Assembly (NCBI GenBank): GCA_963969495.1
Contig: OZ018326.1
Span: 181,203,653 to 181,267,652 of the forward strand
Direction: 5' to 3'
DNA: 64,000 bases
Source: Ceratothoa steindachneri
Lineage: Eukaryota; Arthropoda; Malacostraca; Isopoda; Cymothoidae
Shown: positions 27,413 through 57,906 of the stretch, piece by piece
How the letters are laid out: each line of letters starts with the position of its first letter
Numbering within the stretch: position 1 is the stretch's first letter
Notes under the pieces: model-generated
Databases searched by the model: none
Told to the model about the DNA's origin: nothing
Seen by the model: the letters and a program-made list of their open reading frames with translations, nothing else
Program-made: the position numbers and the translations under genes

Positions 27413-28616
27413 CCATTGAGAGCCTGTTGGTCGATGCTGCGGAGATGCCACTCGCTCGGCGCCTTGTGCAGTGCATCACTCGCCTCTACGCGCGAGCCCG
27501 GCGCCTCCCTCACTCGCTAACAGCTCTCACTGCATCCGTAGCTGATCTCGATGGTGCCTATGCCGCCGAGAGACGCTATTCATACCCTAAGCCCTTTGGA
27601 TTTAGGGCCAGGAAACTCCTTCGAGAGGTAGATATAGCTCTCGGGCCGGTGGCGCCCCTGGTTCTGCCCAGGACGCCACCCTGGAGGGTACCACATTTGG
27701 CTATTTGTAGCCACGCCTCTGCTCCCAAAGCTTGTACTGCGCCGGGAGTATTGCGTTTGACCTTTTTGGAGCACACATCGTGTCACGCTGGAACCGTGCC
27801 AGTGTATACGGATGGCTCCAAGTCCCAAGAGGGGGTCGGCTTCCACGCCGTATCCCCTCTGTTTGAAGTCAGTGGGGCTCTACCAGGCGCTGCGTCTGTC
27901 TTCACGGCCGAGCTGGTGGCAATACACCACTCGGTACGGGAGATTACGCGACGTGCCCGGTTCGGAGACCGGATTGTGATCTATAGCGACTCACAAAGCG
28001 CCCTGAGTGCTCTCGGGGCATTGGAATCTCCGCATCCCCTGGTTCGCGAAATCCGTGACGCCACGGTTTTGGCGAGCCGGGCAGATGTCAAGATTATCTT
28101 CTGCTGGGTTCCTGGACATGTAGGAATTGCGGGGACCGAGGGTGCCAAAGAGTCCGCGAGGACTCTGCGACCGGACCAGCGTTTCGCTCTTCCTCACACC
28201 GAATACATGGCAGGGATACGGGCAGCTCTTCGGACTGCTTGGCAAAGAAGATGGGAGATGGTCGAAGGGAACTTAAAGTTGCGTGCCATTGCGCCGCGAC
28301 TGTTCCCATGGACCTATCCCCCAATGCCACGGCGGCTTCAGTTTGCTTTCTGTCGTCTCCGAATCGTGCACACTCGTGTGACGCATCGCTATTTGATGGA
28401 GCGCTCGCCGGCGCCCTATTGTGATGACTGCGTTGTCCCCCAGACTGTTCGGCACATTCTTGTCGAATGTCCCAGTCTGGGTGATCTCTGCGCACGTTAC
28501 CTGTCCCGGTACCAGGATGGGCGGGATCGCTACTGCTTCTCCATTGTACTCGGGACAAGTTCGTGCACATGGCCTTATAGACTTTTCGGGGGAGGCCGGC
28601 CTTCTGCCCTTTATTT
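27413..28616 (+). pseudogene. RT C-terminus and RNase H of I-like copy B, resumed after the nested insert
   Basis: Picks up exactly where 26125 stopped (AIESLLVDAAEMPLARRLVQ) and runs through VYTDGSKSQEGVGFHAV, FTAELVAIH, YSDSQSALSALG and WVPGHVGIAG. The bases for NERADE are reduced to TEG, so the last RNase H motif (Asp) is lost. The Cys-His tail CDDCVVPQTVRHILVEC is intact. The original stop is shifted, so the frame runs on into the 3' UTR. Confidence 0.88.
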
Positions 28617-28871
28617 AACTGGGTTTTGTTTTTTGTTATTGTTGTTTTCTTTGTATGTTGCACGCTCCTGCGCCGGGGGGAGGGGACCTCCCCCGACGCC
28701 GGAGCTTGCTTCGTAAGTGTTGTCATCTTTCCTTTTTATCGTTGTTCTGTTTTCATATTCTTATTTTAAAGTAGCCAAGTGCTAGGCTGTATTGATTCCG
28801 GCGACTTATGCCCAAGTAGGCAGTTGCTAGATAGGCTCATAAAGTTATATATATATATATATAATAAAAAA

Positions 28872-30601: not shown

Positions 30602-31863
30602 CGAGGGGCTGTCAATAAGTTTTGCGAATCGGTAAGGCAAAGCAGAGGCAGGGGAATGGCTGTTTGTGGGGGTGTTACCACAAGTTATGACAAGTCAGGA
30701 CCTGCAGCCGCACGGTCCTGCCTCGTCTATTTAAGAAGCAGTAGCTGATCGCAGATCGTCAGTCACAAATTTTTCAACAATGGAGAAGGTTGAGCACCGC
30801 TCAGTGATCAAATTTTTTACCAAGGAAGGCAAGAATGCAAGAGATACATGAACGCATGGTTGCAGTGTACACCGACACGACCCCTTCCTATGCGACCATT
30901 GCTCGCTGGAATAGAGAGTTCCGCCATGGTCTGAGTCCCTTGAAGATGACCCCCATCCAGGACGCCCGTGAGATGTGACCAACGAGGACAATGTGGCCCG
31001 TGTGGAGAGGATGATCCTCGAAAATCGACAGGTGAAGGTCAAAGAAATCGAGCAAGAACTTGGAATATCACATGGAAGTGTTATCAACATCATCCACGAC
31101 AATTTAGCCATGGTTGCCCATTGGGTCCCTAGAAAACTCACGCCCCATGATCGACTTCAACATCGTCAAAGTTTGGAGGAGCTGATGCTCCTGTACAACC
31201 AAGCTCCGGCAGGATTCAAGTCACGCATAGTGACAAGTGATGAAACATGGGTCCATCACTGGGATCCTGAGACCAAGCTCCCAAGAATGGCCTGGAAGCA
31301 CAGGGACTCTCCGACCCCCATCAAGTTCCGGACCCAACCTTTAGCTAGGAAGATAATTGCCACCATCTTCTGGGATTCTGAGGGAGTGTTGATGGTGGAC
31401 TATGCGCCTCGTGGAGGGACTATCACAGGCCAATATTACGCTGAGGAACCTGCTGGGTTGAAGAAGTGCATCTGTCAGAAGCGGCGCAGCAAGTTGACAA
31501 GCGGTGTCCTGCTCCTCCATGCCAATGCCCCTGTCCACAAGGAAGGCCAGAGTTGCACAAGTGCGGATTCGAGGGGCTCAACCATCCTCCCTACAGTCCA
31601 GATCTGGCTCCTAGCGACTACTTTATATTCTGCCAGCTCAAAGCTGCACTGCATGGACGCCGGTTTGGGGATGATGAAGATGTCTAGCTCGCCTTCCAGG
31701 AGTGGATTGAACAGCAGTTGGGAGATTTCTGGTTGTCGGGAATTCAAAGCCTCAGGGACAAGTGGCGCAAGTCGAGGGTAGTTATATTGAAAAATACTAA
31801 AACACTTTTCCTCATATCTCGTTTCCTTATATCCAAATTGCAAAACTTATTGACCACTCCTCA
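30602..31863 (+). mobile_element. Mariner transposon with both terminal inverted repeats
   Basis: A 1262-bp element flanked by TA (30600-30601 and 31864-31865). The left end CGAGGGGCTGTCAATAAG and right end (reverse complement TGAGGAGTGGTCAATAAG) are inverted repeats. Length and ends fit the mariner family. It holds a broken transposase gene and lies in intron 3 of UCHL5 in sense orientation. Confidence 0.92.
30780..31790 (+). pseudogene. Mariner transposase, inactive
   Basis: Starts MEKVEHRSVIKFFTKEGK and continues, after a frameshift near 30838, through the paired helix-turn-helix DNA-binding part (PSYATIARWNREF, ELGISHGSVINIIHDNLA). The catalytic domain has SDETWVHHWDPETK with the first Asp. 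The second Asp is replaced by Ala (LLLHANAPVHK, where family members have HDNAP). The third Asp is present in YSPDLAPSDY in another frame. With an early frameshift, a shift near 31540 and a lost catalytic residue, this copy cannot transpose itself. Confidence 0.9.
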
Positions 31864-40727: not shown

Positions 40728-43124
40728 CTCTCTCAAGCTCCCCCATACCAGAAAGACTCCGCTCAGACTTACTTTCATTAGTACTTGCATTCTTCTTTCA
40801 CTCTTCTTTGCACACTTTCTACTCCTTGAGACCAAGACGAGCTCTTTCCCAGACAGATCCATACTATCACACCATCTCATCATCATGCACCTTTCTCTCT
40901 CTCTGCACAGTTCATACACCAGGTAGTCAGTAGGTTCTCTCCACCTCCTCAACGGACTCTGATGAGCCCGGACACTCTGTCACACCTTCATTTAAACTCC
41001 ACAAAACATACGTCACCCCATTTTCCCAAACTCTCACAACTCTATAAGGTCCATCAAACTTTTCACTCATCTTCAACACATTCAACCTACCTTTTACTTC
41101 TTTTACCTTCAATACCTTTGCACCGATTTCAAATGAATGAAACCTTTCATGTGCCTCACACCATACACTCTGCTCACTTTCACTCAAATGAAACCTATCT
41201 TTCACTCGCCTTTCAAAATTCATAACAAACTGACTCAAAGATATCCCAGTCACACTATGCACTGTTGAATTATACACCCATAACACTACCCAACCATACA
41301 TCCCAGTCATTCAAAGTCTCACTCATCATTCTCAACATCTCACACAAAGTCCTAATGGTGTGTTCAGCCAACCCATTCGAAGACGGGACATACAGAGTCA
41401 TTCTTAAATGCCCCGCACCTTTCTCTCTCACCATTCGCTCAAATACTTCACTCGCAAACTCAGGCCCATTATTACTCAGACATCTCCTAGGCTTCCATAC
41501 ACACATAGGAAAAAACAACTGTTCAACCACACATGCAACAGTCACACTCGTTTTATCTTTCACAGGTGCCGCATACACAAACTTGCTTTTATGATTAACC
41601 ATAACAACCATACCAATATTCCCAGGACTCGTATGCAGTAAAGATGCAATCAATTACCTCTAATTCAAACAGTTCTTTTGCATCAACTTTCAACATCGGC
41701 AGTTTAACTTGCACACCTTGCACCTTTTGCTTCTGGACCTTTCACAGTAGTCGCAACATCATTCACAACAGTTCTCAGAAACGGATGAAACACACACTCC
41801 TTCATACACTCCCACAACTTAAACTTACCCATATTCCCATAATTATCATGCACAACTTTCAACAGACCAATCATACCAACCAAGGACATCACAGGTACAT
41901 ACATATCATCCCCATCCTTCATATGCCTCACAGAATATACAACATACATACAAACAACAAAATCCTTAGCATACCTTTTAAAATCTCTCAAACACTCAGG
42001 CCATTCATTCAAATCAACACGCATCATCACACACACCTTTTCAACTCACTGACAAAAGGACACATCTCTTGCATGTCTAGAATATCATCATCACTTAAAA
42101 TCTCATTCTCATCATCCATGAACAATTTGATCATACCGCAAAATTTGACATTCTTTGCACACTCATTCAACCTCATCACCTCACATTCATCTTTCTAACA
42201 GAATCCTTATCAGCATCCAAATCATTCAATCTCATAAAGTCCACACAAAGCAAGAAACAACACAGCATTTGCTCATCTTTCAGAATCACAGTCCTGCTTC
42301 ACATTCACACCACTGCCCAAACTCACTCTCAGACTAGCCTGTTCCCATGCCACTATCATTCCATTCCCCAATCCACTTATCCATAATTTTACAGGCTTCC
42401 ATTCACAACATCTAAACTCATCGTACTTAACCAGAAGGAACATCAGCACTGATATCCACACCATCATCAACTCCACATCATCACTCATCTTCATACAGAC
42501 AATCATTCTTCTCCCTCATATATAAACACTTTTCAATCACCCAATTGTAATTGCACACCGCTCAACACTGCAGATGTACCACATTAGCATTCAAACCCTT
42601 CGCTTTCTCATCCATGTACACAATCGACCTCTCACCACTAAAGTGCACATAAACAATGACTCTCTACAATCAACACTTCCTGAAATGGCGGGACCCCTGG
42701 CATACACATCGCTCTCAATTCTTTCATAAAGTACTGCATCCTTGCCATACCAATACTTTCAAGCTTCCTACATACTTCACTCATTACCTCCTTCCTAAAT
42801 TCATCCACACTATCGGGCACTCTCAGATCTACTCCATCACTCTTCAAATCTTGCAAACCATTCCATACACTCTCAAACAAGGAATCACCACCACCCTTAC
42901 TCTCCCTTCCATTCATAATCTCTGGAAAATCCTCAGGAACACTCACTCCACACACATTTTCATCATTCGTACCAGGATACCTTGACATCAAATCAGCCAC
43001 TCACATCCATTCACCAGGCATGTACTCAATCACATTGTCAAAATCACTCAAATCTTCCAAAGTCCTTGCAATCCTACTATCAGCCCATTTCATACATTGC
43101 AAATACACAAGAGGTTGGTGATGA
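40728..43124 (-). mobile_element. Outer (older) gypsy copy, part 1: post-integrase tail, integrase, second protease, OTU-like, end of RNase H
   Basis: A diverged copy of the family described at 43125-52346, read on the minus strand. Pieces in order from the right are HHQPLVYLQCMKWADSRIAR (RNase H), GGGDSLFESVWNGLQDL (OTU-like, 42638-43000), KYDEFRCCEWKPVKLWISG (second protease, its DTG region deleted near 42435) and the integrase (CLSNNGPEFASEVF, SNGLAEHTIRTLCEM). The tail MDLSGKELVLVSRSRK follows. Aspartate in SDNGPEF has become Asn. The left end is cut by the CR1-like LINE. The complete copy is inserted exactly after TSD bases 43121-43124. Confidence 0.88.
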
Positions 43125-43984
43125 TGTAGCGGGCCGAAAATATATCTAATCCAATCGATAATCGATCCAACTCGCTTCCTACACTGTCCGGACGTGAGAA
43201 ATTGAGGGAGAATAAAACGGATTGTATATACAGTCCCTTTACTTACAAAAAAAAAAGTACAATGATAATTACAGCTTATATTTACAACAATTTTATATTT
43301 ACTAGGGAAGTGTGCACACTTCAAAATGAGGCTAAATTTCCCAATCCAAACACGATACCAAAAGAGAATTTTATAACCGGGAAATACAACAATTTACTTA
43401 TATTCTCCCCAAAACAAAAAAAACACAACAACCGAACGAAAAGGGGGCACGCACTATCACTTGTGTGCTGGAGGTGGGTGGTAGTAGGCTAACTTAGAAG
43501 GAGGCAGGATTGTCAACGAATGCGGGTATGGCGGTTCAGGTGCTTAGAGAGGCACGAAAGCCCTCCGTCTCAGGGCTGGGCGGAGCACTCGTCTAGAGAA
43601 CCCCTCTTGCTATCAGTCCACACTTCCACTCTCTCTTTCCAGAATATGACGCTTTGATAAAAGTTTATTTTAAGCAAAGTACAATATTATTATAGTGATA
43701 TCTCAAAATTAGCTACTATCTTTCCAGAATATAACGCTTTGTTAAAAGATTAATTTAAGCAAAGTACAATCTTATTATAGTGATATCTCAAAATTAGCTA
43801 CTATCTTTCCAGAATATAACGCCTGGAAAGAAAGAAAAACATGGTAATCATTTTATACATAAAATAAACAAAAATAAAACAAACCCATTCCCATTCACAC
43901 ACATTCTTACAGAGGGAGGGAGAGGGTACTGAGAAAAGGGGTGGGAGAATGGCCCTTTTACACACTCACATTCGCTCCACCACA
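43125..43984 (-). repeat. 3' LTR of the complete gypsy element
   Basis: On the + strand it starts TGTAGCGGGCCG and ends CCACCACA, so the ends are TG and CA on both strands. It is about 99 percent identical to the other LTR at 51483-52346. A tandem 85-bp repeat lies inside it. Confidence 0.95.
43635..43822. repeat. 85-bp direct repeat (2.2 copies) inside the 3' LTR
   Basis: The block beginning CTTTCCAGAATAT starts at 43635, 43720 and 43805, giving an 85-bp period. The first two units are near-identical and the third is partial. In the minus-strand sense this lies in U3, where repeated units often act as enhancers; that role is inferred. Confidence 0.88.
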
Positions 43985-43997
43985 CCCCTCCTTCCTT
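43985..43997 (-). promoter_or_regulatory. Polypurine tract
   Basis: On the minus strand AAGGAAGGAGGGG directly precedes the 3' LTR. This is the usual primer site for plus-strand DNA synthesis. Confidence 0.85.
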
Positions 43998-44033
43998 AAG
44001 CCATTCGACCAGCCACTCACTAAACCCTTTCAA

Positions 44034-44862
44034 TCACTCTTCACGGTACCACTTGTGCTCAATCGCACCCTTCTGCACCCATTCACACTCTTCTACTGGT
44101 CCCTGGCTACGCGTAGCAATTAGTCGGGGTTGTTCATCAGTCGTCCTGTCAGTCTCATCATCACTATTTATCATCTCATCAACCATACTCTTAGCCCTCA
44201 TTACCAGTTCTCCCATCTCACGACAGAATTCTTTCATACTCTTCCGTTCAGAACCCTCACTCTTCATACCCCCATTCATCAGCTCCTCACTCACAGCTCT
44301 CATCCAACTCAAGGTACATTCTTGCGAAACAGACAGGTCACTCACATCCCCTGTATTCTCAACAGGCATACCAGAAACCCCTTCGACTGGTTCCCACCAG
44401 AAACCTGAAAAATCAGCCACTTCATCATTCACTACATCAAACTCATCCCTACTATTACCATTTGTAAAACCCGAAAAATCAGCCACACTAGGTTCATTCT
44501 GCCCATACTCTTCCGTTCAGAACCCTCACTCTTCATACCCCCATTCATCAGCTCCTCACTCACAGCTTTCATCCAACTCAAGGTACATTCTTGCGAAACA
44601 GACAGGTCACTCACATCCCCTGTATTCTCAACAGGCATACCAGAAACCCCTTCGACTGGTTCCCACCAGAAACCTGAAAAATCAGCCACTTCATCATTCA
44701 CTACATCAAACTCATCCCTACTATTACCATTTGTAAAACCCGAAAAATCAGCCACACTAGGTTCATTCTGCCCAAACACACTGTCATTCATACTGTTCCC
44801 AAAACCAGAAAAATCAGGCACAGGCAGCTCACTCACTCGTCTACTTATACCAGCCAGATCAC
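44034..44862 (-). pseudogene. C-terminal extension of pol with a 269-bp tandem duplication
   Basis: After the integrase, the minus strand encodes an acidic, low-complexity protein. It has a helix (LEREIEFLLKQVSDLAGI) and repeated DFSGF motifs (PVPDFSGFGN, VADFSGFTNGN, VADFSGFWWEP). It has no resemblance to an envelope: no signal peptide or membrane segment is seen. A 269-bp unit occurs twice (44235-44503 and 44504-44772) with about two differences. Because 269 is not a multiple of three, the second unit is out of frame with the first. The function is unknown, and it may be a capsid- or integrase-associated tail. Confidence 0.7.
44235..44772. repeat. Tandem duplication, two 269-bp units
   Basis: Both units begin CATACTCTTCCGTTCAG (44235 and 44504). 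They differ at about two bases by eye, for example CAGCTCTCATCC against CAGCTTTCATCC. The duplication is recent and specific to the complete gypsy copy as far as I can see. Confidence 0.93.
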
Positions 44863-47592
44863 TCACCTGTTTAAGCAAAAACTCAATCTCCCTTTCAAGA
44901 TCCCCCATACCAGAAACACTCTGCCAGACTTACTTTCATTCGTACTTGCATTCTTCCTTTCACTCTTCTTTGTACGCTTTCTACTCCTCGAGACTAAGAC
45001 TAGCTCTTTTCCAGACAGATCCATACTATCACATTCAATCTCATCATCATGCACTTTACCTCTCTCTCTACACAGTCCATACACCGGATGGCTCACCAGG
45101 TAGTCAGGAGGTTCTCTCCATCTCCTTAACTGACTCTGATGAGCCCGCACTCTTTCAGTCATACCGTCATTCAAACTCTCCAAAACATACGTCACCCCAT
45201 TTTCCCAAACTCTCACAACTCTATAAGGTCCATCAAACTTCTCACTCATCTTTGATACATTCAACCTACCCTTCACTTCTTTCACCTTCAATACTTTTGT
45301 ACCTAATTCAAATGAACGGAACCTTTCATGCGCCTCACGCCATACACTCTGCTCACTTTCACTCAAACGAAACCTATCTTTCACTCGCCTTTCAAAATTC
45401 ATCACAAACTGACATGGGGACATTCCAGTTGCACTATGCACAGTTGAATTATACGCCCACAACACTCTCCCCAGACACACATCCCAGTCATTCACTGTCG
45501 TACTCATCATTCTCAACATCTCACACAAGGTTCTTATAGTCCGTTCAGCCAATCCATTTGAAGACGGTACATACGGAGTTGTTCTCACATGCTCCACACC
45601 ATTCTCTCTCAACATTTGCTCAAACACTTTCCCTACAAATTCAGGCCCATTATCACTCAGACATCTTCTAGGCTTCCATACACACATAGGAAAAAAAAAC
45701 TGCTCAACCACACGCGCAACAGTCACACTCCTTTTATCTCTCACAGGCGCTGCATACACAAACTTACTTTTATGATCAACCATAACAACCATACCAACAT
45801 TCCCAGCACTCGTACGTGGCAAAGACACACAATCAATCACTACCAATTCAAACGGTTCTTTCGCATCAACTTTCAACATCGGTGGTTTCACTTGCACACC
45901 TTGCACCTTTCGCTTCTGACACCTTTCACACGTAGTTGCAACATCATTCACAACAGTTCTCAGAAACGGGTGGAACACACGCTCCTTCATACACTCCCAC
46001 AGCTTAAACTTACCCATATGCCCATAATTATCATGCACAACCTTCACCAGACCAATCATACCAACTAAGGACATCACAGGTACATACATATCATCACCAC
46101 CCTCCACATGCCTCACAAAATATACAACATCCATACAAACAACAAAATTCTTAGCATACCTTTTAAAATCACTTAAACACTCTAGCCATTCATTCAAATC
46201 AACACGCATCATTACACACTTCTTCAACTCACTAACAAAAGGACACATCTCTTGCATCTCTAGAATATCATCATCACTTAAAATCTCATTCTCATCATCC
46301 ATGACCAACTCAATCATGCCACAAAATTTGACAACATTCTTCGCACACTCATTCAACTTCATCACCTCACATTCACCTTTCATAAGACGATCCTTATCAG
46401 CATCCAAAGACAAATCATTCAATCTCATAAAGTCTACACCAAGCAAGAAACAACAAGGCATTTGCTCACCTTTCAGAATCACAAAGTCATGCTTCACATT
46501 CACACCATTACCCAAACTCACTTTCAGACTAACCTGTTCCCATGCCACTATCAAGCCATTCCCTAATCCACTTATCCGTAACTTCACAGGTTTATGCTCG
46601 CAACATCTAAACTCTTCATACTTACTCAGAATATTCTCATTCACTAAAGACACTTGCGCTCCAGTATCAATCAAACCACAGAACAACCTTTCACCAACTT
46701 TCACTCTCGCTTCCATCATATCAGGTCCACCATGTTCGCAATACACCGAAGGAACAAGCACACCAACATCAGCACTGATATCTACACTGTCATTAACTCC
46801 CATATCATCACTCAACACACACTCATCTTCATCCAGACAATCATTCTTCTCTCTTATATATGAACACTTTTCAATTACCCAATTGTAGTGCACACCGCTC
46901 AAACATTGCAGATGTACCACATTAGGATTCAAACCCTTCATCTTCTCATCCTTGTACACAATCGGCCTCTCACCACCAAAGTGCACATAAACAATCACTC
47001 CATACAAACGACTCACTACAATCAACACTTCCTGAAATGGCGGGACCCCTTGCATACACATCGCTCTCAATTCTTTCATGAAGTTCCGCACCTTTGCCAT
47101 ACCAATGCTTTCAGGCTTCCTACACACTTCATTCATTACCTCCTTCCTTAAATCATCTACACTATCGGGCACTCTCACATCTACTCCATCACTCTTCAAA
47201 TCTTGCAAACCATTCCATACACTCTCAAACAAGGAATCACCACCACCCTTACTCTCTTTTCCATTCGTAATTCCTTTCGGCAAATACTCAGGATCACTCA
47301 CTCCACACACATTTTCATCATTCGTACCAGGATACCTTGACATCAAATCAGCCACTCCATTCCGTTCACCAGGCACATACTCAATCACATAGTCAAAGTC
47401 ACTCAAATCTTCCAATGTCCTTGCAATCCTACTATCAGCCCACTTCATACGCTGCAGATACACAAGAGGTTGATGATCGGTTTTTATCACAAACCTCACA
47501 CCATACAAAAATGGACGCAACACTTTCAAACAATATCTTATCGCAGCCAGCTCTCGTTCCACAGTCGAATACTTTCGTTCTGCAACATTCAT
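44863..47592 (-). CDS. pol: Gypsy pol, C-terminal open frame: RNase H end, OTU-like, second retropepsin-like, integrase
   Basis: 909 codons stay open. Residues 1-90: end of RNase H (FVIKTDHQPLVYLQ, WADSRIARTLEDL). Residues 115-240: an OTU-like segment with GGGDSLFESV, PPFQEVLIVVSRLYG and a final HYN; where OTU enzymes have Asp-Gly-Asn-Cys, this has Gly-Gly-Asp-Ser, so the usual nucleophile is replaced. Residues 300-390: a second retropepsin-like domain (GLIDTGAQVSLV, then LLGVDFM). Residues 515-560: integrase zinc finger with His520, His525, Cys555 and Cys558. Residues 580-690: integrase core with Asp587, Asp647 (LSDNGPEF) and Glu683 (LAERTIRTL), a D,D35E arrangement. Residues 780-805: GPY/F module (FDGPYRVVRV). 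The frame is separated by stops from the upstream RT, so this copy is not functional as a whole. Confidence 0.9.
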   Translation of the reverse strand: MNVAERKYSTVERELAAIRYCLKVLRPFLYGVRFVIKTDHQPLVYLQRMKWADSRIARTLEDLSDFDYVIEYVPGERNGVADLMSRYPGTNDENVCGVSDPEYLPKGITNGKESKGGGDSLFESVWNGLQDLKSDGVDVRVPDSVDDLRKEVMNEVCRKPESIGMAKVRNFMKELRAMCMQGVPPFQEVLIVVSRLYGVIVYVHFGGERPIVYKDEKMKGLNPNVVHLQCLSGVHYNWVIEKCSYIREKNDCLDEDECVLSDDMGVNDSVDISADVGVLVPSVYCEHGGPDMMEARVKVGERLFCGLIDTGAQVSLVNENILSKYEEFRCCEHKPVKLRISGLGNGLIVAWEQVSLKVSLGNGVNVKHDFVILKGEQMPCCFLLGVDFMRLNDLSLDADKDRLMKGECEVMKLNECAKNVVKFCGMIELVMDDENEILSDDDILEMQEMCPFVSELKKCVMMRVDLNEWLECLSDFKRYAKNFVVCMDVVYFVRHVEGGDDMYVPVMSLVGMIGLVKVVHDNYGHMGKFKLWECMKERVFHPFLRTVVNDVATTCERCQKRKVQGVQVKPPMLKVDAKEPFELVVIDCVSLPRTSAGNVGMVVMVDHKSKFVYAAPVRDKRSVTVARVVEQFFFPMCVWKPRRCLSDNGPEFVGKVFEQMLRENGVEHVRTTPYVPSSNGLAERTIRTLCEMLRMMSTTVNDWDVCLGRVLWAYNSTVHSATGMSPCQFVMNFERRVKDRFRLSESEQSVWREAHERFRSFELGTKVLKVKEVKGRLNVSKMSEKFDGPYRVVRVWENGVTYVLESLNDGMTERVRAHQSQLRRWREPPDYLVSHPVYGLCRERGKVHDDEIECDSMDLSGKELVLVSRSRKRTKKSERKNASTNESKSGRVFLVWGILKGRLSFCLNR

Positions 47593-49395
47593 AGCCTTGG
47601 ATACATACCCAATTATTCACCTGACATTCTCTCCATCCAAACGCTGCTCTTGCATCAGAAAACCTCCCATACAATACCCACTCGCATCTGTATACAGCTC
47701 AAGCATTTTAGCATTTACACTATAATCTGGGTAAGCCAATTCAACATCTTCAGCTGCTGCCTCTTTCAGTCTCTCATACGCCTCATTCATCTTATCATTC
47801 CACTTGACAACCGTACTACCTTTCTTGCCCATCTACTCAGTCAGAGGCTTACTCACACCAGAACAATCACGTATTTACTTTCGCTGAAACTCAATCAAAC
47901 CCCAAAATGACTTCAGTTGCTTCACAGTCACCGGTTTAGGAAACATTCGCACCTTCTCAACATACTTCGATGATTTTTGCAATCCATTCTCACTCACCAT
48001 ATGCCCAAGGAATTCCACTTCTTTCGCAAACCATTCACACTTCGCCACTTTCACCTTCACACCAACACTCTCCAACGTTCTCAACACATCATTCACCAAT
48101 CTCATATGCTCCTCAAAAGTCTCAGTCATAATCAAAATATCATCTATAAACGCAATCACATTCTTACTCGCAAACTTACTCAACACAACATTCATTGCCC
48201 GCTGGAAGGCTCCGGGAGCATTAGCCAACCCAAAGCTGAGGTTCCGGAACTGGTAATGCCTCTTTGAGGAAGAGAAGGCAGTTACTGGCCGGCTCTCCTC
48301 AGCAATGGGCATCTGGTAATACCCCCGTACCAGATCCAGCTTCGTAAACCACTCCATCCCATGCATACTATACACACACTCAGATACCACACACATCGGA
48401 AACCTTTCTTTCACAGTCCTTTCATTCACCTTTCGATAATCCACACACAGATGCAATCTTCCATCCGGCTTACGTACAGGTACAATTGGACTATTCCATG
48501 CACTCTCACTCTCTTCAATCACCCCCAATTGCTCCAATTCCAAACACTGCTCCTCAATCTCATCAGCAACCGGACGTGGGAAATGCCTCGGCCGCTGATA
48601 GATTGGGGAGTCCTCCTTCAGGACAATCTTGAATTCCGGGAGCTTTGCAACCCCGAAATCCAGATCACCCTTACTGAGGGCTCCCTTTCGTTCAAATATC
48701 ATTCGATACACATCCTCCCTTTCATACTCAGTTAAACATCCATCCAATTCCACCATGCTCTTCACATCATTATACGTCCATTCACACGTCTCTTCACCTG
48801 CAACATTCACCCTGACATCTGTACTATCATCCATACCTACCTCATTGACAGTGGAGAGGTGGCCCAGTATATCTCCGACTTGGATTCCCCTCACCTGCCC
48901 TTTCACACTGGGGTCCGCCTGCACGCATACAAAAGGATCATTCATTCTCATCAAGCCATTAAACACACAAGCAACACGCCTTACCTTATAACATGCATCC
49001 TTTCCATCCAATATCACAGTGTTCTCACTCACATTCAAACTAACATCCTTACTCCAACTCACTCTAACAGACACCCTTTCACCCTTCACAAGCCTTACAT
49101 TCTCCATAGCAGTCACCTCAATACCAGTAAACACACTCCTCAAAACGCTACCATCTTTCCCTACATACAACTTATACACCCCATTTTTACCAATCTTTCT
49201 CTCAATCTGATCACTCGCAGGATGCACAACCATACAATTCATTTTCATAAAATCATACCCCAAAATCACACCATACTCACTACTCACCTTATCAATCACA
49301 GAAAATTCACATTCATTCATCATCATACCATGCATTCGAACAGCTGACCTTATCATTCCAATCAAAGGCACTCTCCTATTACCAATACCTACCAA
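47593..49395 (-). pseudogene. pol: Gypsy pol, N-terminal part: end of first protease, reverse transcriptase, start of RNase H
   Basis: The frame 47875-49395 starts in the first retropepsin (GVILGYDFMKMNC). It then runs through a long spacer to the RT: YQRPRHFPRPVADEIEEQ, SAWNSPIVPVRKPDGRLHLC, CVDYRKVNERT, WFTKLDLVRGYYQMPI, FGLANAPGAFQRAMN and catalytic VIAFIDDILIMTE (IDD). The RNase H start (LYTDASGYCMGGFLMQEQ, 47617-47832) follows after stops at 47874, 47832 and 47618. The older copy reads sense codons at all three places (Phe, Trp and Arg), which shows these are copy-specific lesions. Confidence 0.9.
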
Positions 49396-49598
49396 ACTAC
49401 CCTTGCACTCAGACAGGAGGGCTTTCTCGCTAACTTGTCATACACATCTTTATACACCAAGCTCACCTTGCATCCAGAATCTATTAAAGCCAAACACTCA
49501 ATTCCATTCAATTCCACCTTAACACTCAGACACTCATACTTCCTACCAGACAGCACTTTCACACTAGACAGACTTACCAACACATTACTCACACTCAT
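49389..49598 (-). pseudogene. First retropepsin of the gypsy element, N-terminal half
   Basis: Contains the active-site motif LALIDSGCKVSLVYKDVYDKL (DSG). The other half, with ILGYDFM, is in a different frame from 49395 on, so one frameshift lies near 49395. In the older copy (58875-59410) gag and protease are in one continuous frame, but the motif there reads DSE. Confidence 0.85.
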
Positions 49599-49636
49599 GC
49601 ACCCAGAGGATACTTCAGCAGGTACCCTCTTACCAT

Positions 49637-51388
49637 TCAGTTTCCCGCTTCAGACTTTCCATTCACACCTTGCGCTCTCAGTCTAATCCAACACTTTTCA
49701 CTTGAATGTCCTTCCATCGCACAATAGCTACATACATTCCTCTGGTCACGACACATCCTTGCATAATGACCAGCCTTTCCACAATTACCACATGCATATT
49801 TCATACTTTCCCCAGCAGTTGTTCCACCATTCAACCTCGGACAATCTTTCTTCAAATGGCCTATTTCTTTACACTCGAAGCACTCTTTCACACTTTCCTG
49901 GCAATCCTTTATCATATGCCCTTTCTTACCACACCCAAAACACGCACCAGATGTCCACCTACATTCTGCCAACATATGACCTTTCCTTCCACACCGACGA
50001 CATTCCACAATCTTTCTCCCACCATTCGGTCTCTCGTTTGCTGGGACATACCTCGGTTTCTCTCTCATATATCCTTTCCCACGCTTGAAATTCATCTGCC
50101 CCCTTCCATTCGACCACCCTCCATTTGCCCATCCATTCTGCCGGCCCAGGAAGTTTGACATCACTCCAGCTGGTGCAGCCTTCAGGGCATCCCTGTAGCT
50201 GACAAACTGCTGGGGTGGATGAAAGCTCCTGGGCTTCTTACCCCCAACATTCACACTGTACCATCCATCCTCTTCTAGATCGCTTTCATCATCAAATCGT
50301 CCATCTTCTAACAGTTCCAACACATCCTCCCACATCAACCGTTCACCTGTCAGTCTCACTCTCTCCTTTCTCTTTCCACTCAGCCATTCACTCACCTTTC
50401 GCGGGATCGTGTCCAAAAACTTCCTCATGAGTGGTTTACATTCATTTACATCATCATCACCATACCTCGTTCTTGCCATACTCTCAAGCCTATGTGCATA
50501 CATATTCACACTTTCACTCTTCCCCATTCGAGCCTTCTCAAATTCATTCACCCTCTTATACTTCACACTCTCTTTCATTCGTTTCACCTGCCCAATCAAT
50601 CTCTTCTTCACTACATCGTACTTTGGCTCTCCCACACTCGTTATCACTCGCAAGAACTCCAACACTTTCCCATCCAAACAATCTCCCAGAACACTCACCC
50701 AGTGACCCTTGTTCTGCGGGTACTTGAGCTTGCAGTACCGCTCAAAATCCCCGAAGAACTCATTCATACTCTTTCCCCCATGCAATCTAAACTTATCAAT
50801 CCTTGGCACTTCCCTAATCAAAATTCCTTTTCCCACATTCACTTCACTCTCCGAAGAGCTACTCTCGGTCTCACTCATTCCAATCATATCGTCACTCTCT
50901 CCCTCATCTGAGTATAGCGAATCCGCACTCTTCCCTCTCGCCTTCCTATCCTTAACCTTAGAACCATGCTTACTTCCTCTCTTACTTTCCACTCTCTTCC
51001 ATTCACCCCCTTTCCTACCACTCACAGTATCTTCTTTAGACTCAATCATACTGCCATCCATTCCATTTAGCGGAGTCCCTTCAGTAGGAGCAGGGGTCAG
51101 GGTTGTAGGTCCTGGGACTGATCCAGCCCCTGTCATCATGTTATACAGGTCCTGCATCCGTCGGTCCGTCTGATCCTGTCGGTCTCCCATTTCCTTCTTC
51201 ATCCTATCAGTCTTTTCATTCATCCCTTTTATTTTATTCTCCATTCCCTCCATCATTCCTCGCAACATTTCACACTCCTCTTCTTTCTTTCTCAACTCCA
51301 GTCTCAATCGCACTACTTCTTCATTCAATGTTTCCGCTACAGCCATTGTTCCCAAGTTAGTAAAAAGATAGGAGGCGGGAAAATTCAA
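49637..51388 (-). CDS. gag: Gypsy gag with N-terminal coiled coil and five zinc knuckles
   Basis: 583 codons; the more likely start is Met15 (MAVAETLNEEVV, at 51346). Residues 20-80 are Leu-, Glu- and Lys-rich and predicted to form a coiled coil (RLRLELRKKEEECEML). An acidic and Ser-rich linker follows. Then comes a capsid-like domain at about 190-370 (IDKFRLHGGKSMNEFFGDFE, YCKLKYPQNKGHWVSVLGD). The C-terminus has five CxxCxxxxHxxxxC knuckles: CRRCGRKGHMLAEC, CFGCGKKGHMIKDC, CFECKEIGHLKKDC, CGNCGKAGHYARMC and CSYCAMEGHSSEKC. One or two knuckles are more usual in gypsy gag proteins. It would assemble particles and bind RNA. The shift into the protease near 49680 looks like a mutation, as the older copy has gag and protease in frame. 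Confidence 0.9.
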   Translation of the reverse strand: MNFPASYLFTNLGTMAVAETLNEEVVRLRLELRKKEEECEMLRGMMEGMENKIKGMNEKTDRMKKEMGDRQDQTDRRMQDLYNMMTGAGSVPGPTTLTPAPTEGTPLNGMDGSMIESKEDTVSGRKGGEWKRVESKRGSKHGSKVKDRKARGKSADSLYSDEGESDDMIGMSETESSSSESEVNVGKGILIREVPRIDKFRLHGGKSMNEFFGDFERYCKLKYPQNKGHWVSVLGDCLDGKVLEFLRVITSVGEPKYDVVKKRLIGQVKRMKESVKYKRVNEFEKARMGKSESVNMYAHRLESMARTRYGDDDVNECKPLMRKFLDTIPRKVSEWLSGKRKERVRLTGERLMWEDVLELLEDGRFDDESDLEEDGWYSVNVGGKKPRSFHPPQQFVSYRDALKAAPAGVMSNFLGRQNGWANGGWSNGRGQMNFKRGKGYMREKPRYVPANERPNGGRKIVECRRCGRKGHMLAECRWTSGACFGCGKKGHMIKDCQESVKECFECKEIGHLKKDCPRLNGGTTAGESMKYACGNCGKAGHYARMCRDQRNVCSYCAMEGHSSEKCWIRLRAQGVNGKSEAGN

Positions 51389-51462
51389 TCAAACTACTTG
51401 TCACACTAATTGGGTATGGACTGCAATCCAATCCAGTCACGCTCCCAGTTTCGAAGTCTCAC

Positions 51463-51480
51463 GTCCCTATTCGGGCGCCA
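51463..51480 (-). promoter_or_regulatory. Primer-binding site matching tRNA-Lys
   Basis: On the minus strand TGGCGCCCGAATAGGGAC begins two bases after the 5' LTR. On the + strand it reads as an 18-base tRNA 3' end finishing in CCA. It differs at one base from the well-known Lys3 primer-binding sequence (TGGCGCCCGAACAGGGAC), so tRNA-Lys(UUU) is the likely primer. Confidence 0.88.
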
Positions 51481-51482
51481 AA

Positions 51483-52346
51483 TGTAGCAGGCCGAAAATA
51501 TATCTCTAATCCCAATCGATAATCGATCCAACCCGCTTCCTACACTGTCCGGACGTGAGAAATCGAGGGAGAATAAAACGGATTGTATATACAGTCCCTT
51601 TACTTACAAAAAAAAAGTACAATGATAATTACAGCTTATATTTACAACAATTTTATATTTACTAGGGAAGTGTGCACACTTCAAAATGAGGCTAAATTCC
51701 CCAATCCAAACACGATACCAAAAGAGAATTTTATAACCGGGAAATACAACAATTTACTTATATTCTCCCCAAAACAAAAAAAACACAACAACCGAACGAA
51801 AAGGGGGCACGCGCTATCACTTGTGTGCTGGAGGTGGGTGGTAGTAGGCTAACTTAGAAGGAGGCAGGATTGTCAACGAATGCGGGTATGGCGGTTCAGG
51901 TGCTTAGAGAGGCACGAAAGCCCTCCATCTCAGGGCTGGGCGGAGCACTCGTCTAGAGAACCCCTCTTGCTATCAGTCCACACTTCCACTCTCTCTTTCC
52001 AGAATATGACGCTTTGATAAAAGTTTATTTTAAGCAAAGTACAATATTATTATAGTGATATCTCAAAATTAGCTACTATCTTTCCAGAATATAACGCTTT
52101 GTTAAAAGATTAATTTAAGCAAAGTACAATCTTATTATAGTGATATCTCAAAATTAGCTACTATCTTTCCAGAATATAACGCCTGGAAAGAAAGAAAAAC
52201 ATGGTAATCATTTTATACATAAAATAAACAAAAATAAAACAAACCTATTCCCATTCACACACATTCTTACAGAGGGAGGGAGAGGGTACTGAGAAAAGGG
52301 GTGGGAGAATGGCCCTTTTACACACACTCACATTCGCTCCACCACA
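51483..52346 (-). repeat. 5' LTR of the complete gypsy element
   Basis: Starts TGTAGCAGGCCG and ends CCACCACA on the + strand, with 864 bp and near-identity to 43125-43984. The 85-bp repeat recurs at about 51995-52182. Confidence 0.95.
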
Positions 52347-53272
52347 ATGATTTAATCACGAACCTCACACCATACCAAAGACAGACGCAACACTTTCCAA
52401 TAATACCTTATTGCAGCTAACTCTTTCTCCACAGTCAAATACTTTTGCTCTGCCACATTCATAGCCTTAGATACATATCCAATTATTCGCCTGACATTCT
52501 CTCCATTCAAATGCTGCTCTTGCATCAAAAAACTTCCCATACAGTACCCACTCGCATCCGTATACAATTCAAGGAATCTTAGCATTTACACTATAGTTAG
52601 GGTATACCAATTCAACATCTTCAGCTGTTCCTTCTTTCAGTTTCTCATACGCCTCGCTCATCTTATCATTCCACATAACAGTAGTTCTACCTTTTTTGCC
52701 CATCCACTCAGTCAGAGGCTTACTCACACCCGAACAATTATGTATAAACTTTCGTTGAAACTCATTCAAACCCAGAAACTACTTCAGCTGCTTTATAGTC
52801 ACCGGTTTCGGAAACATTTGCACCTCAACATACTTTGGTGACTTTCATAACCCATCCTCACTCACCATATGCCCAAGGAATTTCACTTCTTTCACAAACC
52901 ATTCACACTTCGCTACTTTCACCTTCCCACCAACACTCTCCAACGTTCTCAACACATCATTCACCAATCTCATATGCTCCTCAAAAGTCTGTCATAATCA
53001 AAATATCCTCTATAAACACAATCACATTCTTATTCGCAAACTTACTCAACACAACATTCATTGCCCACTGGAAGGCACCGGGAGCATTAGCCAACCCAAA
53101 GCTGAGGTTCTGGAACTGATCATGCCTTTTCATAGAAGAAAAGGCAGTCACTTGCCGCTCTCCTTAGCAATGGGCATCTGGTAATACCCCTGTTCCAGAT
53201 CAAGCTTTGTAAACCACTTTATTGCATGCCTACTATACACACACTCAGATACCACACACATCGGAAACCTCT
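52347..53272 (-). mobile_element. Outer gypsy copy, part 2: start of RNase H and RT C-terminal half
   Basis: Starts with the second ATGA target duplication and continues the older copy. It reads RNase H LYTDASGYCMGSFLMQEQ (52352-52585), the connection NCSGVSKPLTEWMGKKG (52569-52769), and the RT to TKLDLEQGYYQMPI near 53200, all with scattered frameshifts. It breaks at CGGAAACCTCTT, where I-like copy E is inserted. Confidence 0.88.
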
Positions 53273-53886: not shown

Positions 53887-54117
53887 TTGTTTTTTTGTTA
53901 TTATTGTTTGTTTTTGTTTTTTTGTAGGTCGCAGGCTCCTGCGCCGGGGGGAGGGGGACCTCCCCCCGACGCCGGAACTTGCTCCCTGATTGTTATCCAC
54001 TTTTTATTGTTGTTTCTGTTAAATTCTTTTATTTTAAAGTAGCCTAGAACTGGGCTGTTTGTTTGCAGCGACTTATGCCCAAGTGGGCAGTTGCCAGATA
54101 GCCCCTTAAAAAAAAAA
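53887..54117 (+). mobile_element. 231-bp 3' UTR-only insertion of the I-like LINE, 14-bp target duplication
   Basis: The direct repeat TTGTCCGGCCAACA flanks it (53873-53886 and 54118-54131). Copy B at 23525-23540 shows the empty site. The insert is the family 3' UTR, with the GC-rich hairpin (53932-53985), the GCGACTTATGCCCAAGTGGG terminal hairpin and the A tail. Confidence 0.93.
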
Positions 54118-54228
54118 TTGTCCGGCCAACAGCGCCCGGGGTTCTGCCTCCCGGAAGTGTACGGCCATTCCCGTGAGGGTCTTCTGTTCGAGGAGGGCCC
54201 CCGAGTCTCCTCCGAGCTAGGCCTGGAG

Positions 54229-55330
54229 GGCATGTTCCTTCAATGCAATTGCCGTGGACTCCGGGCCAACTGGGAGGAGCTGCGGAGGCCCGTCTCGTCC
54301 TGTTCCCCGTTAGCTATCTTTTTGCAGGAGACCATGCTAGGCGCGTGCCCCCTGCCCTCCCTCCCGGGGTATAAGGGTCTTGCGACCCCACCACCACGAG
54401 ATGGCCGGGCTGGGGGATGGGCGGTTTACACCCGGCATGATGTCTCCATTCTTCCTTTCTCTTTAGATACCTCCTTTCAGGCAGTGGCTGTGCAGCTGCA
54501 CCTGGATAGGAGGTATACTATCATTTCTGCGTACATTCCACCGTCAGCTGACTTCGACGCGGGGGACTTCCGCTGCGTCGTGGAACGGTTGCCGAGGCCC
54601 TATCTCTTGCTTGGAGATCTGAACGGCAGGCATCCTCTCTGGGGAGATTACTCCATAAATCCCAGGGGACAAGTCCTTGCCGATCTGATCGAAGAGCTTG
54701 AGATGGGTGTCCTAAACGTGGATGAGTTTACGCATCACTGTCCGAGAACCGCTTCATTTTCTTGCCTTGACCTATCTTTGTGCTCTTCGGATGCACAGCC
54801 TGATTTTGATTGGTGGGTGGTCGATGACCTCCATGGTAGTGATCACTTTCCCATTCAAATATCATTTTCAGGGCAACTGCCGCCTGAGAGACCACCTCGG
54901 TGGTGCTTTGGGCGGGCGCGGTGGCCTGCATTTCAGGAAAGGACTGAATTCTCTATCTCAGTCGAGGAGTTTAGGTCGGTAGATGAGGCCGTTGAGTTCT
55001 TCTCCGGCAACCTCATCGCCGTGGGCCTGACTACTATTCCTAGGACGTCTGGCCGTTTTGCACGCCGACCACTCCCATGGTGGTCGGCCGAGTGTGAGAC
55101 GGCCCTCAAACAGAAGCGTTATGCCTACATGCCCTATAAGCGCCGCCCGAACGATTTCACTGTCGCTGAATTTCGTCGGGCTAGGGCTAGGTTCCGGTAT
55201 ATTTCGAAGCACGCCCGCTGCTCTTCTTGGTGGGGGCATACGTGTCTTCACTTAACGGGAAGACCCCTTTAGCAGAGGTGTGGAAGTGAGTCAAAGGGAT
55301 TCGGGGCAAGTTTTCGCAGGACTCCCCTCC
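54229..55330 (+). pseudogene. ORF2 endonuclease of I-like copy E
   Basis: Best view of the ORF2 start in the window: MFLQCNCRGLRANWEELRRP from 54229. APE motifs IFLQETML, LLGDLNGRHPLWG, SFSCLDLSLCS and GSDHFPIQI are intact. The frame is lost near 55240, where TGGTGGGGGCATACG has extra G bases compared with copy B. Upstream (54160-54228) is the stretch deleted from copy B at the ORF1-ORF2 junction. Confidence 0.88.
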
Positions 55331-56935
55331 CGTTCTCCAGGAGAATGGGACCGCAATCTCGGACCCTGCGTCCGTGGCGGAATCCTTAGCGACCGCTTTT
55401 TTCGCATTCTCTAGCCGAGATGCTGCTCCGCCAGCATTCAATGCACGTCGTGATGACGCGGAAGGCCGCCGACTGGACTTTACCTCCAGAGGCGGAGAAC
55501 CCTTCAACGACAAGTTTACTGTGATTGAGTTGTGGTCCGCTCTCGATTCGTGCGCGGACACCGCCCATGGTCCGGACGATGTCCCGTACGCCATGCTTCG
55601 AAACCTGGGTGAGTGAGGCATGGCCTTTCTGTTAGATTTGTTCAACAGGATCTGGGTGGAGGGTCTTCTCCCAGACTCCTGGCGAATCGCTACTGTGCTC
55701 GCCTTTCGCAAACCGGGGAGAGATGAATCTACTCCGATCCGTTTCCGCCCAATCTCTCTAACCTCTTGCGTGTGCAAGTTGATGGAGAAATTGGTAAATG
55801 TTAGATTAGCCTTTTTCCTGGACAGCGGAGGCCATCTGTCTTCTGCACAGTGGGGCCTACGCAAGTTCCACTCCACGTCGGATGCTCTGCTCCGACCGGA
55901 AAATGCCGCCTGCGAGGCTTTCCTTCGTAGACAGCACTACACCACGGTCTTTTTCGATCTGGAGAAGGCCTATGATACCGCATGGCAATACGGTATCATG
56001 GAGTCTCTCCACACGATGGGGGTGAGGGGACGCCTCCCAATGTTTATATCTGAATTTTTGCGAGATCGTCGATTCCGCGTACGGGTGGGGGGAGCCCTCT
56101 CTGGCCCAAAGGAGCAGGAAGAGGGTGTCCCGCAGGAAAGTGTCCTCAGTGTCACACTCTTTGCCCTGAGCATCAACGGCATCACCTCGGTGCTGCCGAA
56201 AGATGTTCTCGCTACGCTCTACGTGGACGACCTTTCGATCTCTTTTGGCGCGGTCCAGATGCCAACTCTGGAGCGCCGACTCCAACAGGCATTGAACCGC
56301 GTTTCTCGCTATGCCGAAGCGCACAGGTTTCGGTTTTCTTTGGCTAAGACTAAGGTGGTGCACTTCTGCCGCCATCCACGGCTTCACCCCGACCCAGATT
56401 TGTTTCTTAATGGGGTGCGCCTGGATGTGGTGGAATCGCACCGTTTCCTCGGTCTTGTATTCGACCGACGCCTCACCTGGGAGGCTCATATTCGCAGCCT
56501 TAGGGTCTCTTGTACCCGCGTCATGGACATTCTCCGTTCCGTGACGTTCAGCGCTGATAGGGCTACTGCCCTACTTTTTTATCGATCCTTTGTCCGTTCG
56601 AAGCTCGACTACGGATGCGAGTTTTATGCATCCGCAGCCGAGCGTTTATTGCGGAAGGTGGACTCGATCCACTACACCGGCCTTCGCCTTGCGACCGGTG
56701 CCTTCCGCACTTTCCCCATTGAGAGCCTGTTGGTCGATGCTGGGGAGATGCCACTCTCTCTGCGCCGCGTGCAGTGCATCACTCGCCTGTACGCGCGAGC
56801 CCGGCGCCTCCCTCAGTCGCCAACAGCTCTCGCTTCATCCGCAGCTGATCTCGATGGTGCCTATGCCGCCGAGAGACGCCAGTCATACCCTAAGCCCTTT
56901 GGGTTCAGGGCCAGGAAACTCAGAGCTAGATATAG
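55331..56935 (+). pseudogene. Reverse transcriptase of I-like copy E
   Basis: RT motifs in order: GPDDVPYAMLRNLGE, then a stop at 55615 (Arg in copy B). The open frame from 55620 has RPISLTSCVCKLMEKLV, VFFDLEKAYDTAWQYG, EGVPQESVLSVTL (GS has become ES) and catalytic LATLYVDDLSISF. It continues to ESLLVDAGEMPLSLRR and the RNase H linker. A 5-base loss near 56920 (GGAAACTCAGAGC) shifts the frame before RNase H. Confidence 0.9.
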
Positions 56936-57906
56936 CTCTCGGGCTGGTGGCGCCCCTGGTTCTGCCCAGGATGCCACCCTGGAGGGTACCACATTTGGCT
57001 ATTTGTCGCCACGCCTCTGCTCCCAAAGCTTGTATGGCGCCGGAAGTATTGCGTTCGACCTTTTTGGAGCACACCTCGTGTCACGCTGGAACCGTGCCAG
57101 TGTATACGGATGGCTCCAAGTCCCAAGAGGGGGTCGGCTTCCACGCTGTATCCCCTCTGTTTGAAGTCAGCGGGGCTCTGCCAGGCGCTGCGTCTGTCTT
57201 CACGACCGAGCTGGTGGCAATACACTACTCGGTACGGGAGATTACGCGACGTGCCCGGTTCGGAGACCGGATTGTGATCTATAGCAACTCACAAAGCGCC
57301 CTGAGTGCTCTTGCGGCATTGGAATCTCAGCTTCCCCTGGTTCACGGTTATGGCGAGCCGGGCAGATGTCGAGATTATCTTCTGCTGGGTTCCTGGACAT
57401 GTAGGAATTGCGGGGAATGAGGGCGCCAAAGAGTCCGCGAGGACTCTGCGACTGGACCAGCGTTTCGCTCTTCCTCACTCCGACTGCATGGCAGGAATAC
57501 GGGCAGCTCTTCGGACTGCTTGGCAAAGAAGATGGGAGACGGTCGAAGGGAACTTAAAGTTGTGTGCCATTGTGCAGCAACTGTTCCCATGGACCTATCC
57601 CCCAATGCCTCGACGGCTTCAGGTCGCTTTCTGTCGTCTCCGAATCGGACTCACTTGTGTGACGCATCGCTATTTGATGGAGCGCTCGTCTGCACCCTAT
57701 TGCGACGACTGGGTCGTCCCCCAGACTGTTCAGCACATTGTTGTTGAATGTCCCAGTCTGGGTGATCTTCGCGCACGTTGCCTGTCCCGGTACCGGGATG
57801 GGCGGGGTCGCTACCACCTGTCCCTTGTACTCGGGACGAGTGCGTGCACTTTGACTGGTGGACTTGTTGACTTTTGGGGGGAGGCCGCCCTTCTCCCTAT
57901 TATTTA
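56936..57906 (+). pseudogene. RNase H and Cys-His tail of I-like copy E
   Basis: Two overlapping frames read VPVYTDGSKSQEGVGFHAV, ASVFTTELVAIHYSV and IYSNSQSALSALA (catalytic Asp of YSD replaced by Asn). A short deletion near 57340 shifts the frame into ADVEIIFCWVPGHVGIAGNEG. The tail is CDDWVVPQTVQHIVVEC, where one zinc Cys has become Trp. It stops at about 57906. Confidence 0.88.

Follow-up and report, generated by a model that had tools for sequence, protein, structure and literature searches.

The question raised by this locus is whether an unusual Pol protein, with a deubiquitinase-like segment and a second protease placed between RNase H and integrase (IN), is a property of a single damaged copy or of a whole lineage of retrotransposons. 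The window is a 64,000-nucleotide stretch of the genome of the isopod Ceratothoa steindachneri (GenBank assembly GCA_963969495.1, contig OZ018326.1, positions 181,203,653 to 181,267,652 of the forward strand), and all coordinates below are counted within it. The element is a Ty3/Gypsy retrotransposon on the minus strand at 43125-52346, with both long terminal repeats (LTRs), nested in an older copy that belongs to its own family. The initial annotation, made from the sequence without database searches, had read its order as gag, first protease (PR1), reverse transcriptase (RT), RNase H, OTU-like segment, second protease-like domain (PR2) and integrase; the open reading frames (ORFs), motifs and domain matches in the window agree with this order. 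Ordinary Ty3/Gypsy (Metaviridae) elements share the LTRs, the gag zinc knuckles, the PR-RT-RNase H-IN order and the GPY/F motif, and the solved RT nearest to the one found here is that of Ty3. The family described here differs from them in the added OTU fold and second retropepsin.

The unusual part is found in one ORF of 909 residues (44863-47592, minus strand, as are all features of the element), which contains, from the N- to the C-terminus, the end of RNase H (47314-47592), the OTU-like segment, PR2 and integrase. The OTU-fold domain is located at 46864-47292, with an approximate C-terminal limit, and includes the motifs GGGDSLF (GGGDS at 47233-47247, Ser codon 47233-47235) and HYN (46882-46890). 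PR2 (46384-46749) has the two motifs DTGAQVSLV and LLGVDFM, the DTG being at 46660-46668. The integrase (45187-46086) consists of an H2C2 zinc finger, the rve core and a C-terminal KFDGPYRV; the latter is the GPY/F motif, which according to an excerpt of PMC2836005 is a hallmark of gypsy-type elements when found C-terminal to the integrase core. Upstream are the RT (47998-48474; RVT_1, E 1.5e-29; Ty3 RT in PDB, E 7.1e-39) and the conventional first retropepsin, PR1 (49200-49540, limits approximate), with the motifs LIDSGCKVSLV and ILGYDFM and its DSG at 49473-49481. The pol of this young copy is broken: there is a frame change inside PR1 near 49.4 kb, there are stops between RT and RNase H, and the N-terminal part of RNase H, up to about 47760, is in a broken frame.

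Is the architecture shared? Relatives (P0001-P0146) were collected by searches with the OTU-PR2 part and with the PR1-RT-RNase H part of a relative (best 120 of 1652 matched proteins). One of them, P0109 ('K02A2.6-like, partial [Cordylochernes scorpioides]'), is an ordinary gypsy protein, where the RNase H and integrase matches are only 22-24 residues apart, and it was used as outgroup. With profiles built in this analysis we scanned 147 proteins: 145 relatives, the window ORF and P0109. All six domains are found in the order PR1-RT-RNase H-OTU-PR2-IN in 103 of the 147, and the other lineage members are pieces with the same order. OTU is detected in 141 of the 145 relatives, while the other four (P0083, P0100, P0108 and P0114) end at most 25 residues after RNase H. 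Ten proteins have OTU without PR2, and all of these end 0-43 residues past the OTU match. Where more than 150 residues precede RT, PR1 is present in 128 of 130 proteins; the two others, P0001 and P0097, have their RT at 166 and 181, and PR1 may be missing there through truncation. Most directly, OTU and PR2 are both present in every one of the 112 proteins that span RNase H to integrase. One of the relatives, P0019, is from the amphipod Hyalella azteca. The initial annotation had named a chimeric insertion in this one lineage among the findings that would undo its reading; every examined relative spanning the place carries both domains. We regard the architecture PR1-RT-RNase H-OTU-PR2-IN as practically certain. 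A search for relatives among viral_contigs gave 19 stretches matching a pattern, none of which was confirmed. The precomputed Pfam list of P0046 includes PF00018, PF14604 and PF07653, which we take to be SH3-type and possibly a further accessory domain.

The similarity to OTU and to retropepsins that had been proposed from motifs is recovered: both folds appear in the predicted structure model, and OTU is also supported by Pfam matches of relatives and by the family profile. The OTU profile aligns to OTUD3 with GDGNCLF opposite GGGdslF and EHYDSV opposite iHfNpv. A search of NCBIfam with OTU and PR2 returned only chance-like matches (magnesium chelatase). Because of the relatives' matches, the family profile and the fold we assign the segment to OTU: by prediction and homology it is a real and conserved OTU fold.

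Its active site, on the other hand, is not that of the OTU deubiquitinases (OTUD3, yeast Otu2, OTUD1, OTUD5/DUBA), from which the family also differs in that its OTU is embedded in a retroelement Pol. The window copy was noted at first sight to have Ser in place of the Cys nucleophile and Gly in place of the preceding Asp, and GGGDS is typical of the family: at the nucleophile position 139 rows contain 128 Ser, 7 Thr, 4 Ala and no Cys. One Ser row, that of P0065, is without the N-terminal motif and possibly misaligned; counted by motif the number is 127 (124 plus three odd motifs by eye). The Asp of GDGNC in OTUD3 is replaced by Gly in 137 of 138 rows and by Ser in one. The catalytic-type His is kept in 134 of 136 and the third residue is Asn or Asp in all 136. 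As Cys is absent throughout while His and Asn/Asp are kept, the loss of Cys is a trait of the lineage and not damage. The same conclusion had been drawn earlier from the older copy in the window, which has the same Ser: at 42638-43000 (minus strand) it contains an RNase H end and an OTU segment with GGGDSLFESVWNGL, shared with the young copy.

Two readings of this site have to be weighed. We consider the OTU domain probably non-catalytic, judging from its residues. The main rival keeps it as an enzyme: Ser (or Thr) would act as nucleophile, in a triad completed by the conserved His and Asn/Asp. A hydroxyl residue in 135 of 139 rows, together with the kept His and Asn/Asp, is more than the fold would seem to need at about 33% mean identity, and this fits an enzyme. 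However, a change from Cys to Ser normally abolishes the activity of a thiol protease, the Asp of GDGNC is replaced, and Ser or Thr would also fit a helix N-cap. Further, the four relatives with Ala (1470, 1726, 2074 and 1940 residues) still have their other domains detected, which weighs against a Ser-based enzyme. We found no precedent for a Ser in Drosophila Otu in the open-access literature. Overall we judge the Ser-based enzyme unlikely, and continue with the non-catalytic OTU.

PR2, in contrast, retains what a retropepsin needs in its motifs: the Asp is kept in 132 of 132 rows, the Gly of DTG in 131 of 132 and the Gly of LLG in 126 of 127, and the predicted model has the retropepsin fold. 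Since the active-site motifs are kept, we read PR2 as quite probably an active aspartic protease. A near-invariant set of Cys and His separates it from PR1: a CxH/C motif, a Cys four residues before the Asp (130 of 132 in PR2, 0 of 124 in PR1) and a Cys four residues before the LLG Gly (124 of 126 in PR2, 0 of 122 in PR1). In the window ORF these are C285 (46738-46740), H287 (46732-46734), C305 (46678-46680) and C381 (46450-46452). Lying beside the active site, they possibly form a zinc site or a redox pair.

Where does PR2 come from? The profiles of PR1 (53 sequences, all upstream of RT) and PR2 (67 sequences) are strongly alike (E 4.5e-27), and in a tree of 12 elements and two distant outgroups PR2 forms one clade with support 98/93. 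We propose that PR2 would stem from one early copying of the retropepsin of the element itself or of a near relative, followed by divergence and the gain of the Cys/His set. The best solved relatives of PR2 by sequence are the single-domain host retropepsins ASPRV1 and DDI1, the latter also by fold, and DDI1, like OTU, belongs to ubiquitin biology; PR2 could accordingly have been captured from a host gene of this type with or after OTU. PR1, however, matches DDI1 better (E 1.3e-13) than the OTU and PR2 profile does (E 7.5e-7), so the match to DDI1 does not single out PR2, and given also the likeness between the PR1 and PR2 profiles we find capture from a host rather improbable. Unlike DDI1 and ASPRV1, which are host proteins, PR2 is part of a Pol.

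The same likeness allows another arrangement, where PR1 and PR2 of one polyprotein pair to form a pepsin-like heterodimeric active site, so that no meeting of two polyproteins is needed. According to an excerpt of PMC2642776, pepsins are believed to stem from a dimeric ancestor of retropepsin type that was duplicated. In the present family neither domain has lost its Asp (124 of 124 rows in PR1), the two sequences are close, and DDI1 is matched both by the fold of PR2 and by the sequence of PR1. Against such pairing, each domain has a complete active site, as expected for two homodimers, and RT and RNase H separate them. We therefore think that PR1 and PR2 are unlikely to pair, about as unlikely as the host origin, and keep the reading of PR2 as a protease in its own right.

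The comparison of conservation covered 92 complete proteins. Averaged over pairs, identity is 0.60 for RT, 0.57 for RNase H, 0.45 for integrase, 0.33 for OTU, 0.29 for PR2 and 0.26 for PR1, while the linkers between OTU and PR2 (0.12) and between PR2 and integrase (0.16) are far less conserved. Conservation of OTU and PR2 is thus no weaker than that of PR1. At a shorter time scale, the median ratio of nonsynonymous to synonymous rates (dN/dS) between the window and 24 open copies in the genome is 0.28 for OTU (0.13-0.81) and 0.38 for PR2 (0.12-0.89). These comparisons are not independent, as all share the window row; the loci are those scoring best against a distant relative (a piece of P0017), and 6 of 30 with stops were left out. 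Among 12 open co-linear copies of the 30, 13 of 27 changes in OTU are nonsynonymous at an expected share of 0.73 (one-sided p 0.0045), indicating constraint.

Taken as a whole, the explanation that we favour, by a slight balance of the evidence, is a lineage with a PR1-RT-RNase H-OTU-PR2-IN Pol, an active PR2 and a non-catalytic OTU that perhaps binds a ubiquitin-type protein. Within the polyprotein PR2 would cut the RNase H-OTU-PR2-IN section, perhaps acting at a different step from PR1; its position between OTU and integrase would suit release of integrase or trimming of the C-terminal half of Pol. By descent, the OTU domain may be a deubiquitinase of the OTUD3/OTUD5/Otu2 type that lost its Cys before the examined relatives diverged, and would work without thiol catalysis, most likely as a scaffold binding ubiquitin or a ubiquitin-like protein. 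Given this descent, such a protein is the simplest ligand; binding of ubiquitin itself is a tentative suggestion, with somewhat less than an even chance. So bound, the domain could shield Pol or integrase from ubiquitin-dependent (proteasome) destruction, or tether them to a ubiquitinated host factor. A bolder and distinctly improbable extension is that the lineage made a deubiquitinase into a non-catalytic reader of ubiquitin, joined to a second retropepsin that is regulated separately and has a metal or redox site of its own. Activation of PR2, alone or paired with PR1, would then require the pseudo-OTU to engage a ubiquitin-type signal, and the host ubiquitin system would time Pol maturation or integrase release.

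Several observations weigh against this explanation. For OTU, the Pfam search with the window segment alone gave no OTU match, and the best single Pfam E-value among the relatives is 1.1e-4, so that the support from sequence alone is modest; further, a near-invariant Ser is not required at the freely drifting site of a pseudo-enzyme, and its hydroxyl may have a catalytic or a helix-capping role. The 1652 matched proteins, of which the best 120 are listed, may include more remote relatives that lack OTU or PR2. For PR2, a few relatives have another residue at the Thr of DTG (119 Thr, 8 Ser and 5 others of 132), PR1 does not form one clade in the tree, and the origin of PR2 from PR1 is tested with the two distant outgroups only. 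Identity alone is not a marker of a domain, as the stretch between PR1 and RT (0.25) is about as conserved as PR1. Finally, 19 of 27 changes in PR2 among the 12 copies are nonsynonymous (p 0.47), so no constraint is shown. Purifying selection is supported by dN/dS for both domains and by polymorphism for OTU, and not by polymorphism for PR2. This last result would fit OTU and PR2 being passive spacers or decaying passengers without function, as would the broken state of the window copy and of many genomic copies. On the other hand, passengers would not be expected in all spanning proteins, with near-invariant residues, with linkers beside PR2 so much less conserved and with dN/dS below one between copies; we consider this reading very improbable, and hold to functional OTU and PR2 domains.

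The family is abundant in the genome (3.93 Gb, 529 contigs) and recently active. The OTU-PR2 query scored at least 129 copies, at 98-100% identity, and an RNase H query at least 150, at 100% identity over that part and all on the contigs C1-C5; the distant P0017 query scored at least 123. These counts are lower bounds, with thousands of candidates beyond those scored. As 60 places found with OTU-PR2 are outside C1-C5 and add to the 150, there are more than 200 distinct near-identical copies. A frame of at least 1776 codons is open in 44 of the 150 copies listed for the RNase H query; copies whose long pol frames look intact therefore carry the trait. No family similar to P0017 was seen: across the 123 scored loci the matches are at most 33% identical to the query, and the 24 loci set against the window share 93-98% identity with it. 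A separate observation is made on contig C9, where five copies of the family stand head to tail at about 271978-353078 with a spacing of ~20,046 bp, each with an open frame of 1782 codons; either a 20-kb segment that contains the element is tandemly repeated there, or the array is an artefact of assembly.

The remaining features of the window copy are those of a Ty3/Gypsy element. Over 865 aligned columns, the 5' LTR (51483-52346, 864 bp) and the 3' LTR (43125-43984, 860 bp) show 9 substitutions and 6 gap columns, and the element is flanked by a 4-bp target-site duplication, TCAT, at 52347-52350 and 43121-43124. A primer-binding site, TGGCGCCCGAATAGGGAC, is located at 51463-51480; it is close to what is presumably the tRNA-Lys3 type. 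A polypurine tract at about 43985-43998 precedes the 3' LTR; the duplication, the primer-binding site and the tract were read by eye. The gag ORF (49637-51388) has four stretches of zinc knuckles (zf-CCHC), identified by domain search. A C-terminal Pol extension (44037-44860, high end approximate) adjoins the stop codon at 44034-44036, and by eye it is alike the C-terminus in P0001 and P0008; in the window copy it contains an exact 269-bp tandem duplication (44235-44503 and 44504-44772). Each LTR has an internal pair of overlapping 107-nt repeats, 94% alike, that start 85 bp apart (43631-43822 and 51991-52182).

The older, interrupted copy continues at about 52351-53270. Beyond the OTU motif it is decayed: in a three-frame reading it has NYN for HYN, contains stops and is missing the DTG stretch of PR2. 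Between this decayed copy and the young one the changes at codon positions 1, 2 and 3 number 8, 12 and 15 in OTU, a weak excess at the third position, and 21, 24 and 58 in integrase, where the excess is clearer. As the older copy is decayed, we give these counts no weight. Elsewhere in the window, ORFs on the plus strand at 54091-57164 and 24912-28713 resemble non-LTR retrotransposons (endonuclease and RT; RT and RNase H), and the ORF at 30975-31781 has a Transposase_1 domain (E 1.3e-14) that we take to be mariner-type.

How does the family relate to other mobile elements with extra domains? Ginger1 DNA transposons, according to an excerpt of PMC2836005, have terminal inverted repeats and carry an OTU (or Ulp1) domain on the C-terminal side of a gypsy-like transposase core; the domain is annotated there as a cysteine protease. 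As far as that excerpt goes, they share with the present family a gypsy-like integrase and an OTU in one mobile-element protein; the window element is not a Ginger1, as it has LTRs and RT and its OTU is N-terminal to integrase. Helentrons also carry OTU, as an additional ORF or domain, in excerpts of PMC4067079 and PMC6431247, and the first of these states that their OTU conserves all residues required for function; as described there, they differ in being rolling-circle elements. The giant Burro gypsy elements have a Pol with MATH, BIR, BCL-2, SUMO-like and dUTPase-like motifs, some linked to ubiquitination; dUTPase-like domains between PR and RT are also on record in gypsy Pol (both from an excerpt of PMC6431247). 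Burro thus shares a gypsy Pol with extra domains, but at other positions, and the excerpt does not mention OTU or a second retropepsin for it. Among the open-access papers listed by our searches we found no description of an LTR retrotransposon that carries OTU, or that has RNase H and integrase separated by a second retropepsin; in PMC6875170, and perhaps in several other papers listed, OTU stands for operational taxonomic unit. Repbase, Dfam and subscription papers were outside this search and may contain annotations of it. Within the literature searched, the lineage is undescribed.

If the explanation favoured here is true, two retropepsins and a conserved pseudo-deubiquitinase are standard equipment of a Pol lineage rather than a one-off capture. 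The family would then offer a natural two-protease polyprotein, in which the control of retropepsin activation may be studied. It would also provide a naturally occurring set of OTU domains in which Ser occupies the nucleophile position, and through them a way to study the role of OTU folds that are catalytically dead.

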